The notes beneath the pieces were generated by a model. It saw only the letters and a list, made by a program, of their open reading frames with translations, ran no database searches and was not told where the DNA came from. A program made the translations under genes and the position numbers. Of a DNA stretch of 64,000 nt, positions 41,605 to 45,993 are shown in pieces; within the stretch, counting starts at the first letter, position 1; every line of letters starts with the position of its first letter. This stretch comes from Bacteroidales bacterium (lineage in GTDB: Bacteria; Bacteroidota; Bacteroidia; Bacteroidales; WCHB1-69): assembly GCA_017525245.1 (NCBI GenBank), contig JAFXTE010000020.1, positions 1-64,000 of the forward strand, written 5' to 3'.

Positions 41605-44600
41605 TTATTTTTTCAGAATCTTCTGAACACCGTTGCCGACTTTCAGCAAATAAAGACCTGCGGGATAAGATTGCATGTTCAAGGTAATGTGCGTGTCACC
41701 GCTGTTCACCATCTCCAACAGCTGTCCATTCACATTGTAAAGTTCCACTTTTTCGGAATTCTCATTGATGATGTACAATGTGCCGTTACAAGGGTTCGGG
41801 TAGGCGAAGACCTGCGGCATCTCGTGATTGTCAATGCCGACGGGTTTTTGGTGGATGACACCCACGCCGGTCAAATCGAAGCCACTGGTATGGTAATCGG
41901 TCGGCCAAGGGTCGTTGACGATGTGACCGAAAGCGTCGTAAGAACCGTATTGCGGATCAATGGAACCCACCACATCCACGATGCGGACATAGACGATGCT
42001 GTCAATATTGAGGTTTTCACTGCCAGCCAGTTCCTCAAGATCAAACGGAGTGCCGTAGCCGATTTGGAACTTGCCGGCCAAGTTGTTAATGAAGGTGGGG
42101 TCAACAAAGCCAAATGTTCCGACCTGAGTTTCCGTCGGGGTGAGGCTGGTGGCCGGGAAACGCACAAAATGCACGCCGTCGGAGCTCACTTCCACGAAAG
42201 CCAACTCCAGGAAGCCGCCGTTAATATCGTTCTCGAAAACGGCAAAGTCAGGACCTTCCCCGTTCTGGATAGGACGCTCAAAGGTAACTAACGCGGAACC
42301 GCCGTCGCCAAGACTCACAGCATCCATGCTGTTGTTCGGTGTGGCGGGTCCTATGGCATTCGTTTCGTCGCCAAAGGTGACTGCCGGGCTGTTCGGATTA
42401 GAGATGTCTTGTGGACCGCGAGTCAACACCACATTGGTAGCCCATGCCACGAATTGATTGTCATCCACTGCGATTGCGTTACAGCCTTCGGTACCCACGC
42501 CGCCACAGAAAGGACCGTGTTCGGGAATCGTGTCAGAGCCAGAACCTCCCGTCGTGTCAGGAACGGTGACAGGATAAATCGTCATCGGATAGACATAGAT
42601 GTAGTTCCAGTAGCCGCCGTATTCGTCAACCCAGACACTGTCAACGAGGATACCCGTGCTGCCATCCGCCCATTTCTCGAAATCACCGTTGGCGAGTGTT
42701 TGGCCCATACCCCAGTCCATCACACCGTTATTGGTGCTACTCCAATAATAACCTGGGGTGATGCCGAGCGGAGTGGTCATGCCGGCAGCGGTGTCAATGT
42801 AGTTGATGTCGCTGACCATGCCCGTGCCCGTAAAGCTGAAACGTGGGTCAGCGGCGGCGATATGGTTCATCATGTCAGCCACGGTGGCGGTACCGTCCCA
42901 GCGGTAACCCCAAGCCAACGCGGTGTCAGCCCAGTTCACGGCCATCACGGCCTCGTTGGAGCCAGTACCCACCCAGAAGAGGATCTCGCTGGCGGCGATG
43001 GTAGCCTCCTCGGGAACAGGGATGACAGGTGTGGTGTCAGGAGCCGTGACAGGATGAATCTCAGTAGGCCAAGTCACCCCCATCGGATACCACATACCAG
43101 CGAAAGCGGTGGAGTCGTAGCCAACACCGTATGCGGACTCCCCGACCTTCAGGAAAGCACCGTCAGTAACAGCGCTGGTAAGACCGGCCTGCGGGTTGCC
43201 ATTAAGGATAAACTGCATGTAGTTTCCTGTAACATTTTGGAAGGTGAGGCTTGTGGTGCCATCGTTATAGTCAAACGTGGACATGGCTGCATTGGTTGTA
43301 AGGCGGTCCTCGGCGGCCACAAGTGCCTGCAGAGCCGTAGTCACGGTCAGATCACCGCTGAAACGCAAGCCCCAAGCCAGTGCGGTGTCAGGAACACCCC
43401 AGTTGATGGCAATGACGGCCTCATTGTCACCAGTACCCACCCAATATTGGATGTCGCTGGCGGAGATGGTAGCGTCAACTGGCATGGTAGCCACTGTTGC
43501 GGGAACAATGGGCGTATCCCATACATTGTCCGTCCGGTTGCTCACCACGACAATCGTGTTGTCAGTAAGGTCATAGTCTTCGAAATCTTCATATTCGTCT
43601 GCTAAAATCCCGTCCACTTTGAAACGGAAGTTGTCGGTCATCAACTTGAGCGGGTGGTTGACATAATAGAACGTATATTCGTAAGTTTCCCAGCTGATAG
43701 TGTAAGCCAAGCGTGGGTCGGCGGCATCAATATCCACCAACATATCACCTACCGTAGGCTCGTCAACCGCGTCGAAATGATAACCCCAAGCCACGGAAGT
43801 ATTGTCTATGTTGAGAACGAAAATAGCGCTTTCGCTACCTTCGCCCACCCAATAGAGGATGTCATCAGCGGCGATGGTGGCGTCACCAGGAATGACAGGT
43901 GTGGTGTCAGCAACATCCAACGCAACCGTCAGGTTGTCGATACCGCAGTAGCGGTTGCCGGGACCGGTGGTGCTGGCCGTGGTGCTGGCGACATCCCACA
44001 TAAGCGTGAGTCGTGCATCAGCAGGGACATTGGCATACTGGTTGAAATGGATCGTGTCGTGATGCAGGACTTTGTTATCGGCGGTATAAGTTTCAAGAGC
44101 CACAAAGTCAGCGGTGTCATTCATGATATAGCCCACCACAAGATGCGTATTGGCATCAGCGATATTGGTGCGATGATCGAAGGTGAGCACCGTTTGGGAG
44201 AGGGGGGCGTCGAAAGCGGGCAGCACAGCGTAACGGCGGGTTCCCGTGGTAAGCATATCATTGATATAATTTGTGTTGTTGCCAGTATAAATCTGGCTGG
44301 CGATGAATGCGAAGAAGGCATCGTTGGCCGCAATGGCGCCGAAACTGTTGGTGCTGGTGGAATAACCCACACCGCCGAAATAATCGGCATCGGTTGAAGT
44401 GCCATTACCACTATGATGGACAGTTCCATTGCTGTAAACAGTCCAGCAATCGGGTTTCGGAGCTCCAGCAAAATAGGGACGCATACTCTGATCGGAAGTG
44501 TAGCTGGCAAAATCCTCGCTGTAGGTCAGCGGATGGATGGTCGTGCAGAGGGTGTCGGGCTCAACGGGAGTTGCGGGAGGCGTAACGGGCGTGGGCATTT

Positions 44601-45579
44601 TCACCCAGGCTTCCTGCATATAATAACCATATTGGAAATCCCAACCAATGGCGGAGTTCATATCACCATACTTGAACACATCTCCGTTGTGGAGCGTGCT
44701 GCTTGCACCGGCATCGGCACTGACGCCGTTGAGGTTGGTCCACCAGAAGTTGTAACCGACATTCGGATCAACGGGGGAAAGTCCCAGCGTGTCGCCATTG
44801 TCGAGAACAAAATGGATGTCGCCACTGACAGAAGGAGAACCCTCCGTCCAGAAACGCGGGTCAGCGGCGGCAATGGCATCGACCATAGCTTGCGCCGTAG
44901 TGGTTCCATCGAAGCGGTAACCCCACGCAAAAGCCGTGTCGGGTTGCGCGAAGTTGACGATAAATTCGGCACTGTTGGAACCGGAGCCCACCCAGTAGAG
45001 AATTTGGTTGAAAGGAAGGGAAGCGTCAACAGGATCGGTGGGAGTACCACCGTTCGAATCAGTAGCAGCCTCCACATCATCACTCGTAAGACTGAAATAA
45101 CACGAGCTGCTGATCTCCATTTGGTCACCATCAAACATCTCGTATTCGCTATATCCAACCGGAGCAAAAGAACCATTAACATTATAGCACCAATAGTTAG
45201 CCGATGAAGCGGACATCAAAACACCATCATTGTATCCGATATAGGTCACTAATCCGGAACCAAAGTTGTAGGTCACTCGATTGTCATAGATGGCGATAGA
45301 ATCCAACATATTGACAGCGGTAGCCCCGTCATTAAAACGGACTCCCCATGCCAATGCAAAATCGTTGCCGGAAGGGTTGTCATCCCATCCGATAATCACC
45401 ACGGCACTGTTGCTGCCGCTGCCAACCCAAAATTCAATGTCTTCCATAGGGAATTCATCAACCGAGCGCACTGCACTCGCTTGGAAATCATGCCCATTCT
45501 GGTGAATTGTCACCGTCTGCTGGGCAAACGTCAGGTTTATCATGCACAATAAACCGAAAAAAATTAAAAGTTTCTTCAT
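41605..45579 (-). CDS. Cobalamin-riboswitch-controlled T9SS surface protein with five transcobalamin-like repeats
   Basis: A 1324-aa protein with a signal peptide (1-19). Five repeats of about 135-150 residues begin near 47, 190, 572, 708 and 865. Each has a WVGxGxNxA strand at 51, 196, 577, 713 or 869, then AWGYRFDG, a TaxxMlxxI helix and, best seen in the first two, YWCYNVNGSFAPVGYSEYEM and FWWTNLNGVSADAGASS followed by a GD. This order resembles the DUF4430 / transcobalamin C-terminal domain. A jelly-roll module sits at about 345-555. A conserved-looking domain spans about 1030-1245 (GEGPDFAVFEND, FLELAFVEVSSDGVHFVRF). The last 70 residues form a T9SS sorting domain (YPNPCNGTLYI to KVGNGVQKILKK). 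A cobalamin aptamer lies in its leader. Predicted role: surface cobalamin or corrinoid capture (inference). The gene is monocistronic, with no BtuB gene nearby. Confidence 0.85.
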   Translation of the reverse strand: MKKLLIFFGLLCMINLTFAQQTVTIHQNGHDFQASAVRSVDEFPMEDIEFWVGSGSNSAVVIIGWDDNPSGNDFALAWGVRFNDGATAVNMLDSIAIYDNRVTYNFGSGLVTYIGYNDGVLMSASSANYWCYNVNGSFAPVGYSEYEMFDGDQMEISSSCYFSLTSDDVEAATDSNGGTPTDPVDASLPFNQILYWVGSGSNSAEFIVNFAQPDTAFAWGYRFDGTTTAQAMVDAIAAADPRFWTEGSPSVSGDIHFVLDNGDTLGLSPVDPNVGYNFWWTNLNGVSADAGASSTLHNGDVFKYGDMNSAIGWDFQYGYYMQEAWVKMPTPVTPPATPVEPDTLCTTIHPLTYSEDFASYTSDQSMRPYFAGAPKPDCWTVYSNGTVHHSGNGTSTDADYFGGVGYSTSTNSFGAIAANDAFFAFIASQIYTGNNTNYINDMLTTGTRRYAVLPAFDAPLSQTVLTFDHRTNIADANTHLVVGYIMNDTADFVALETYTADNKVLHHDTIHFNQYANVPADARLTLMWDVASTTASTTGPGNRYCGIDNLTVALDVADTTPVIPGDATIAADDILYWVGEGSESAIFVLNIDNTSVAWGYHFDAVDEPTVGDMLVDIDAADPRLAYTISWETYEYTFYYVNHPLKLMTDNFRFKVDGILADEYEDFEDYDLTDNTIVVVSNRTDNVWDTPIVPATVATMPVDATISASDIQYWVGTGDNEAVIAINWGVPDTALAWGLRFSGDLTVTTALQALVAAEDRLTTNAAMSTFDYNDGTTSLTFQNVTGNYMQFILNGNPQAGLTSAVTDGAFLKVGESAYGVGYDSTAFAGMWYPMGVTWPTEIHPVTAPDTTPVIPVPEEATIAASEILFWVGTGSNEAVMAVNWADTALAWGYRWDGTATVADMMNHIAAADPRFSFTGTGMVSDINYIDTAAGMTTPLGITPGYYWSSTNNGVMDWGMGQTLANGDFEKWADGSTGILVDSVWVDEYGGYWNYIYVYPMTIYPVTVPDTTGGSGSDTIPEHGPFCGGVGTEGCNAIAVDDNQFVAWATNVVLTRGPQDISNPNSPAVTFGDETNAIGPATPNNSMDAVSLGDGGSALVTFERPIQNGEGPDFAVFENDINGGFLELAFVEVSSDGVHFVRFPATSLTPTETQVGTFGFVDPTFINNLAGKFQIGYGTPFDLEELAGSENLNIDSIVYVRIVDVVGSIDPQYGSYDAFGHIVNDPWPTDYHTSGFDLTGVGVIHQKPVGIDNHEMPQVFAYPNPCNGTLYIINENSEKVELYNVNGQLLEMVNSGDTHITLNMQSYPAGLYLLKVGNGVQKILKK

Positions 45580-45601
45580 AATTTATACTGTTTGTTTAAT
45601 T

Positions 45602-45636
45602 GTGATCAGTGAATAGTGATTGGTGAATAGTGATAT
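45602..45636. repeat. Heptamer array in the riboswitch leader
   Basis: Five units (gtgatca, gtgaata, gtgattg, gtgaata, gtgatat) lie between the aptamer and the start codon. Confidence 0.8.
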
Positions 45637-45818
45637 GCGCATAAGGAATTTGTCGAAGAAATATCCGACAAAATCTTGCTGTTTTTCAAGAAAATACCAT
45701 AAACGCATAATCCTCGGCATTCAGGTTTGACAAAATGCTTCGGACAATATAAGGAATGAAGAGCGCGATTAGGGTCTCTTTTGCATCCGCCTACCTCCCG
45801 AAGCGATAACAACACGCA
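45637..45818 (-). other. Leader between the cobalamin aptamer and the start codon
   Basis: About 180 nt of leader with no gene. One hairpin is visible (tttgtcg/cgacaaa, 45649-45655 with 45666-45672). No T-run terminator is seen, so control may act on translation. A short open frame across it has no support. Confidence 0.5.
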
Positions 45819-45955
45819 AATGGCAGGTTTTCTGACTCGTTCCGGAACAGCGTCTTCCCATCTTTCGACAGTGACTATTTGCCGTTCTTCTTTGTAGAAC
45901 TCACAGCAGCGGGTACTGTACAGGATTCACACCTGTTTCCCTCTCAGGACTTTAG
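45819..45955 (-). promoter_or_regulatory. Cobalamin riboswitch aptamer
   Basis: On the minus strand the conserved segments occur in order: GGGAAACAGGTGTGAATCC, then GTACCCGCTGCTGTGA, then GTCACTG, GGGAAGACGC and the B12-box-like GAGTCAGAAAACCTGCC (ending near 45820). Order and spacing match the classical AdoCbl-type aptamer. It lies in the 400-nt leader of the 1324-aa gene and should lower its expression when cobalamin is ample. Confidence 0.95.
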
Positions 45956-45985
45956 CGACTAAAATCCTTCACCACTTTGCGGCGG

Positions 45986-45993
45986 CAAAGATA
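45986..45993 (-). promoter_or_regulatory. -7 box for the riboswitch transcript
   Basis: CAAAGATA on the plus strand is TATCTTTG on the minus strand. The transcript would begin near 45980, just before the aptamer. Confidence 0.65.

Follow-up and report, generated by a model that had tools for sequence, protein, structure and literature searches.

A riboswitch-led, T9SS-tailed protein with DUF4430-type repeats, a candidate surface accessory of cobalamin uptake in Bacteroidales

What is the role of a large, probably secreted protein whose gene stands alone behind a cobalamin riboswitch? The question is raised, in a gut bacterium, by positions 41,605 to 45,993 of contig JAFXTE010000020.1 (Bacteroidales bacterium, assembly GCA_017525245.1), of which the first 64,000 nucleotides (nt) were analysed, hereafter the window. 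A preliminary description, made from the letters alone, had noted a clear minus-strand cobalamin aptamer in the leader of a single gene of 1324 amino acids (aa), five repeats in its product and a signal for export by the type IX secretion system (T9SS), and had interpreted the product as a surface cobalamin trap made of transcobalamin-like repeats. Our results confirm the observation and partly support the interpretation. From the sequence comparisons presented here, it is well supported that the riboswitch-led gene encodes a repeat protein of the DUF4430 type that has a T9SS tail and is linked to cobalamin; the protein very probably has a role in cobalamin uptake. We consider it somewhat more probable than the opposite that the repeats directly bind cobamides. 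The full mechanism, in which the protein would assist BtuB/BtuG uptake by capturing cobamides at the surface, is held with the same modest confidence, since it cannot be more probable than the binding step that it contains. The features of the locus are as follows.

45986..45993, minus strand: TATCTTTG at the aptamer's 5' edge, a candidate -7 promoter box of the Bacteroidetes type (TAnnTTTG conserved at the same place)
45805..45991, minus strand: cobalamin riboswitch aptamer (RF00174, 90.7 bits, E 3.7e-21, full model)
45789..45803, minus strand: CTTCGGGAGGTAGGC element, directly 3' of the aptamer at the place of the P13/L13 hairpin (form recurs in other riboswitches)
41605..45579, minus strand: coding sequence, 1324 aa (open reading frame call)
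45520..45579, minus strand: probable signal peptide, about residues 1-20 (read from the sequence)
45031..45465, minus strand: repeat R1, residues 39-183, DUF4430 (PF14478 27.1 bits; out-of-genus profile 96 bits)
44569..45030, minus strand: repeat R2, residues 184-337 (out-of-genus profile 108 bits)
43894..44547, minus strand: J domain, residues 345-562, no assigned family, missing from many relatives (domain delineation, scans)
43483..43887, minus strand: repeat R3, residues 565-699 (out-of-genus profile 72 bits)
43033..43479, minus strand: repeat R4, residues 701-849 (out-of-genus profile 102 bits)
42553..43011, minus strand: repeat R5, residues 857-1009 (out-of-genus profile 115 bits)
41836..42534, minus strand: C domain, residues 1016-1248, distantly BtuH-like (out-of-genus profile 334 bits; hhalign to a BtuH alignment)
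41608..41802, minus strand: T9SS type A sorting domain, residues 1260-1324 (PF18962 6.2e-11, TIGR04183 6.9e-11)

The aptamer is complete (model positions 1-189, against an Rfam gathering score of 31.5 bits) and is the sole match in the window at that score. The five repeats lie within a few residues of where they had been described, with the WVGxG motif at residues 51, 196, 577, 713 and 869. A profile built from 47 repeats, all from outside the window's genus, finds the five at 72-115 bits and matches the 1324-aa protein only among the 378 stop-to-stop open reading frames (ORFs) of at least 60 aa in the window; an additional stretch (residues 477-536) scores a negligible 3.1 bits. The protein passes the gathering score of PF14478, the DUF4430 model (23.8 bits), through repeat 1, and at E<=10 Pfam finds in it DUF4430 on repeat 1 alone together with Por_Secre_tail at 1260-1324. 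Repeats 2-5 join via the repeat profile. When 37 diverse repeats were scanned singly, 15 matched DUF4430 at E<=0.1 (best 6.5e-10), and the repeat profile aligned to stand-alone DUF4430 proteins (six sequences) at 95.2% and E 2.5e-8 in hhalign, where the best of 60 shuffles reached 0.0057 and eight comparisons among unrelated profiles gave 0.027 to 0.77. A second DUF4430 match in the same genome is weak, lying below the cut-off and carrying one internal stop (C1:257).

The pointing of both riboswitch and repeats to cobalamin, on which the preliminary description relied, is borne out by a B12-uptake genome context in several Bacteroidales families. Our sample comprised 40 regions of the window's family (36 with a repeat gene), five other Bacteroidales loci and the window, that is, 43 repeat genes at 42 loci; a weak repeat-profile match at L151 (21 bits) was left out of the count. 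A same-strand cobalamin riboswitch lies upstream within 9 kb of 42 of the 43 repeat genes, which is not an unbiased rate because the choice of most loci rested on a riboswitch recorded beforehand on the contig. The distance is within 300 nt for 24 of the 42 and 976 to 2760 nt for the others, with an opposite-strand gene intervening at L081, and the lone repeat gene without an upstream riboswitch (L108) is situated at a contig edge. A less biased set is given by the five loci fetched without a listed riboswitch (L080, L103, L106, L107 and L108), of which four have one. Furthermore, btuG and/or btuB occur on the same strand within 6 kb of 22/43 repeat genes, counting L081 and also L080, where btuG is upstream of the riboswitch. 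In a second less biased sample, taken across the order, a Pfam DUF4430 match was found in 15 of the 393 Bacteroidales genomes searched (one of them, in G448, under the Pfam cut-off), and 12 of these 15 loci have an upstream cobalamin riboswitch, up to 6.6 kb off with btu genes between. The three loci without it sit on contigs of 3.0, 8.1 and 5.2 kb; on the last (L152), the DUF4430 ORF begins at base 71 and is followed by cobU, cobT, cobS and cobQ (names assigned by eye).

Some of these DUF4430 proteins, from other Bacteroidales families, are small and stand-alone. Two follow btuB-btuG (L154:9549-9980, L157:8871-9269), one directly follows a cobalamin riboswitch (L155:9807-10220), and those of L152 (71-469) and L154 are ahead of cobU/cobT/cobS-like genes. 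They share with the 1324-aa protein the domain and a riboswitch/btuB/btuG or cob context, whereas they have a single domain, about 130-145 aa, and neither a C domain nor a T9SS tail found by Pfam.

The operons of relatives take several forms. One genus (g15, L098-L101) has the order riboswitch-btuB-repeat-C-btuG as separate genes and another (g14, L094-L096) riboswitch-btuG-repeats fused to C-btuB, while family f101 (L156, L158, L159, L161) has riboswitch-repeats-C with btuG next in L156 and L161. The window's own genus shows riboswitch-btuG-repeats or riboswitch-repeats alone. The btuB of the L095 operon matches 8blw_A, named BtuB1 (5.6e-154), and the btuG of L098 matches 8blw_B (1.1e-75). 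Therefore, the claim that this protein stands apart from the BtuG/BtuB systems holds at this locus, as does that of a lone gene with no adjoining receptor (no btuB/btuG homologue among the classified ORFs of the window, all on this contig), but it does not extend to the relatives, whose repeats are genes of riboswitch-led btuB/btuG operons. Since the relatives keep the repeats in such operons, the lone riboswitch-repeat gene looks like a derived state.

A btuB homologue is present in 94 of 104 family genomes at E<=1e-30, and the search for btuB elsewhere in the window's own genome, suggested earlier, found one homologue, at C46. This genome also has one FecCD permease and three cobalamin riboswitches, which precede the 1324-aa gene, btuG and an anaerobic ribonucleotide reductase-like gene. 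The parts are thus dispersed, the 1324-aa gene and btuG being each riboswitch-led and the single btuB having no riboswitch nearby. At the third riboswitch, on C86, the distance to the anaerobic ribonucleotide reductase-like ORF is 93 nt and an nrdG-like ORF comes next (L006:5688-7778).

The protein is not made of repeats only: it ends in the C domain, and it contains the J domain, neither of which had been mentioned. The C domain aligned to 29 BtuH-type sequences at 92.5% and E 4.8e-7 in hhalign (49 columns; best of 60 shuffles 0.018). The BtuH-type alignment was seeded by a protein of L153 matching the PDB chains 8blw_B (1.3e-77) and 7biz_A (3.5e-41), which we take to be BtuG1/BtuH-type and BtuH2. 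This distant likeness suggests that the C domain may itself bind B12. A BtuH query against the window's genome (G000) gave nothing at E 1e-15. Regarding export, the T9SS signal was verified, as PF18962 and TIGR04183 both score over cut-off and the genome has a SprA_N match (7.4e-158); the two marks of a T9SS type A substrate, a sorting domain over cut-off and a translocon component in the genome, are thus both present. The L153 BtuH-type protein itself (L153:6159-7355) carries a T9SS tail (PF18962) in a riboswitch-btuB-btuG operon, so T9SS export of B12 binders is perhaps not limited to repeat proteins.

From these elements, a mechanism can be proposed. At low cellular cobalamin, the leader riboswitch would leave the gene on, by analogy with known Bacteroidetes cobalamin riboswitches; the product would cross the outer membrane via the type IX system and be held at the surface, as its tail and the SprA homologue suggest. 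There, the DUF4430 repeats and the BtuH-like C domain might capture cobamides and hand them over to BtuG and BtuB, and several sites per chain would raise the local B12 concentration and avidity. A broader proposal is that DUF4430 is a general bacterial cobamide-binding domain, several copies of which make up a multivalent surface trap here, with a BtuH-like domain fused to it. We regard it as tentative and rather less probable than binding by these repeats. Were it true, a single chain may accommodate as many as six cobamides, and a bacterial B12-capture family would include the vitamin-binding beta domain of the vertebrate intrinsic factor and transcobalamin.

The likeness to the animal carriers must be interpreted cautiously. 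Of the vertebrate carriers transcobalamin, intrinsic factor and haptocorrin, the first two were scored on the DUF4430 model that repeat 1 matches: the human transcobalamin segment scores 24.2 bits on PF14478, over the cut-off of 23.8, and the intrinsic factor segment 23.1, just under it. TC-beta alone has been crystallised with bound cyanocobalamin (PMC5599065). In contrast, the N-terminal alpha domain of the vertebrate family was not found in the 1324-aa protein (Pfam, E<=10), which is bacterial, multi-repeat and T9SS-tailed. Several results weigh against the repeats being cobalamin-binding relatives of these carriers, or against the mechanism built on them. Membership of DUF4430, foreseen for each repeat, held for repeat 1, whereas repeats 2-5 have no PF14478 match of their own at E<=10, and 22 of the 37 singly scanned repeats lack a DUF4430 match at E 0.1; among them is R5 of the window, in which no Pfam family was found when scanned singly. 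The transcobalamin beta-domain likeness stood on the Pfam model, but direct hhalign comparison with transcobalamin, whose side was an alignment of two sequences only, was negative for the repeats, the stand-alone DUF4430 proteins and both merged (E 0.3, 0.82 and 0.2), some shuffles outscoring the real comparisons. No transcobalamin was retrieved from the PDB by sequence search, whether the query was the whole protein, the repeat profile or that of the stand-alone DUF4430 proteins. Therefore, with the direct comparison negative and the PDB profile searches empty, the tie to the animal carriers rests on Pfam. DUF4430 also occurs in Lactococcus lactis and methanogens, no riboswitch was found in the 19 kb around the genome's own btuB (C46), and the likeness of the C domain to BtuH spans 49 columns only, the PDB search with the C profile not having recovered the chains 8blw_B and 7biz_A. 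The solved structures searched in the PDB contain no detectable relative of the repeats, and we regard PDB matches with E values of 0.5-1.3, among them RuBisCO small subunit, as fortuitous.

The main rival explanation is that the BtuH-like C domain alone binds B12, the DUF4430 repeats forming a stalk or docking modules that position it at the surface or bind BtuG/BtuB. The C domain is indeed better conserved than the repeats (65% against 34% mean column identity, 24 C sequences), it is fused to or near 34 of the 43 repeat genes, and two riboswitch loci (L097 and L117) have it although no repeat gene was detected there, while the number of repeats detected per gene varies from 1 to 5 and the repeats failed in the direct comparison with transcobalamin. 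Nevertheless, other families have single DUF4430 proteins without a C domain in their B12 operons (L154, L155, L157), and 9 of the 43 repeat genes lack a C domain, whether fused or in the neighbourhood; since both kinds of gene dispense with it, the repeats apparently play a B12-related part independently of C, and we consider C-only binding unlikely, if far from negligible. T9SS cargo may be either anchored or released, and the protein could thus be set free, alone or on vesicles, and act as a siderophore-like scavenging sponge for B12 instead of working with the receptor at the surface. Vesicle-borne BtuJ is reported to play such a part in Bacteroides thetaiotaomicron (PMC12751083). No riboswitch having been found by the genome's own receptor gene fits this explanation too. 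In relatives, however, the operons that hold the repeats also contain btuB and btuG, which points to a function at the receptor. We regard release as unlikely, slightly less probable than C-only binding.

Adhesins commonly have repeats, a T9SS tail, a J domain and a variable length, and repeat-bearing giant paralogues with fn3 and choice-of-anchor J domains would suit an adhesin or a structural surface protein whose link to the riboswitch is incidental or indirect. Yet the DUF4430 loci of the order-level survey were found regardless of riboswitches, and with 12 of 15 riboswitch-led, a coincidental riboswitch was rejected; the btuB/btuG operons of several genera and families speak against it as well, and we judge this explanation very improbable. 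We favour a surface accessory of BtuB/BtuG uptake as the best reading.

In Bacteroides, BtuB/BtuG with the accessory binders BtuH, BtuJ and BtuK are known (PMC6143338, PMC8941943, PMC12751083, PMC10404256). The 1324-aa protein resembles these systems in cobalamin riboswitch control, in the operons that its counterparts in relatives share with btuB and btuG, in its BtuH-like domain and in presumed surface capture of B12. It differs in having DUF4430 repeats instead of a propeller or a DUF4465 jelly roll, in a T9SS tail that replaces the lipoprotein signal, in several repeats in one chain and in the dispersal of the parts in the window's genome. Pfam finds no beta-propeller family in it and it falls outside the btuG homologue set, in contrast to BtuG; DUF4465 was not found at E<=10, in contrast to BtuJ. 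A literature search covering little of the subscription journals and no bioRxiv preprints returned no description of a part played in bacterial B12 uptake by DUF4430 or by proteins resembling transcobalamin; no paper in this search mentions PF14478, and the six that mention DUF4430 give it no bacterial B12 role in their titles and abstract openings. How gut Bacteroides capture B12 depends in part on surface binders such as BtuG, BtuH and BtuJ. If confirmed, a domain of the transcobalamin family within BtuB/BtuG operons would be a further class of B12 binder, would show the T9SS used for vitamin capture and would offer a tangible bacterial relative to studies of how the animal B12 carriers arose, and a function is hereby proposed for a domain of unknown function.

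In the leader, TAnnTTTG stands at the TATCTTTG position in 58 of 61 cobalamin riboswitches (0.012 expected per site) and is presumably the Bacteroidetes -7 consensus. The CTTCGGGAGGTAGGC form is found in 21 of the 61 and TTCGGGA in 40, many of the remaining ones having CTTTCGAGGA there; this element probably forms the P13/L13 hairpin. A search of the leader for a terminator-type expression platform was negative (2 terminator-like sites in the consensus scan for 5.2 expected; leader fold z -1.21).

Three further observations concern related proteins. The NCBIfam family NF033170 (LIC_13355 family lipoprotein) matches 21 of 24 C domains weakly at E<=1 (best 2e-5), the window's own C domain (41836-42534) scoring 13.7 bits for a cut-off of 120, and a B12 role of these lipoproteins is conceivable from this weak likeness. 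At L151:2763-5447 there is a DUF4430 pair, preceded by an ORF that resembles, by eye, an energy-coupling factor (ECF)-type S component, downstream of a ribonucleotide reductase-like ORF; this contig is possibly foreign to the genome. Finally, the giant paralogues (L088:6158-11506, L089:2830-7908, L110:6684-11072, L114:518-5923) are riboswitch-led, of 1462-1801 aa with 2-4 detected repeats, and the three that were scanned (L088, L089 and L110, not L114) contain the fn3 and choice-of-anchor J domains.

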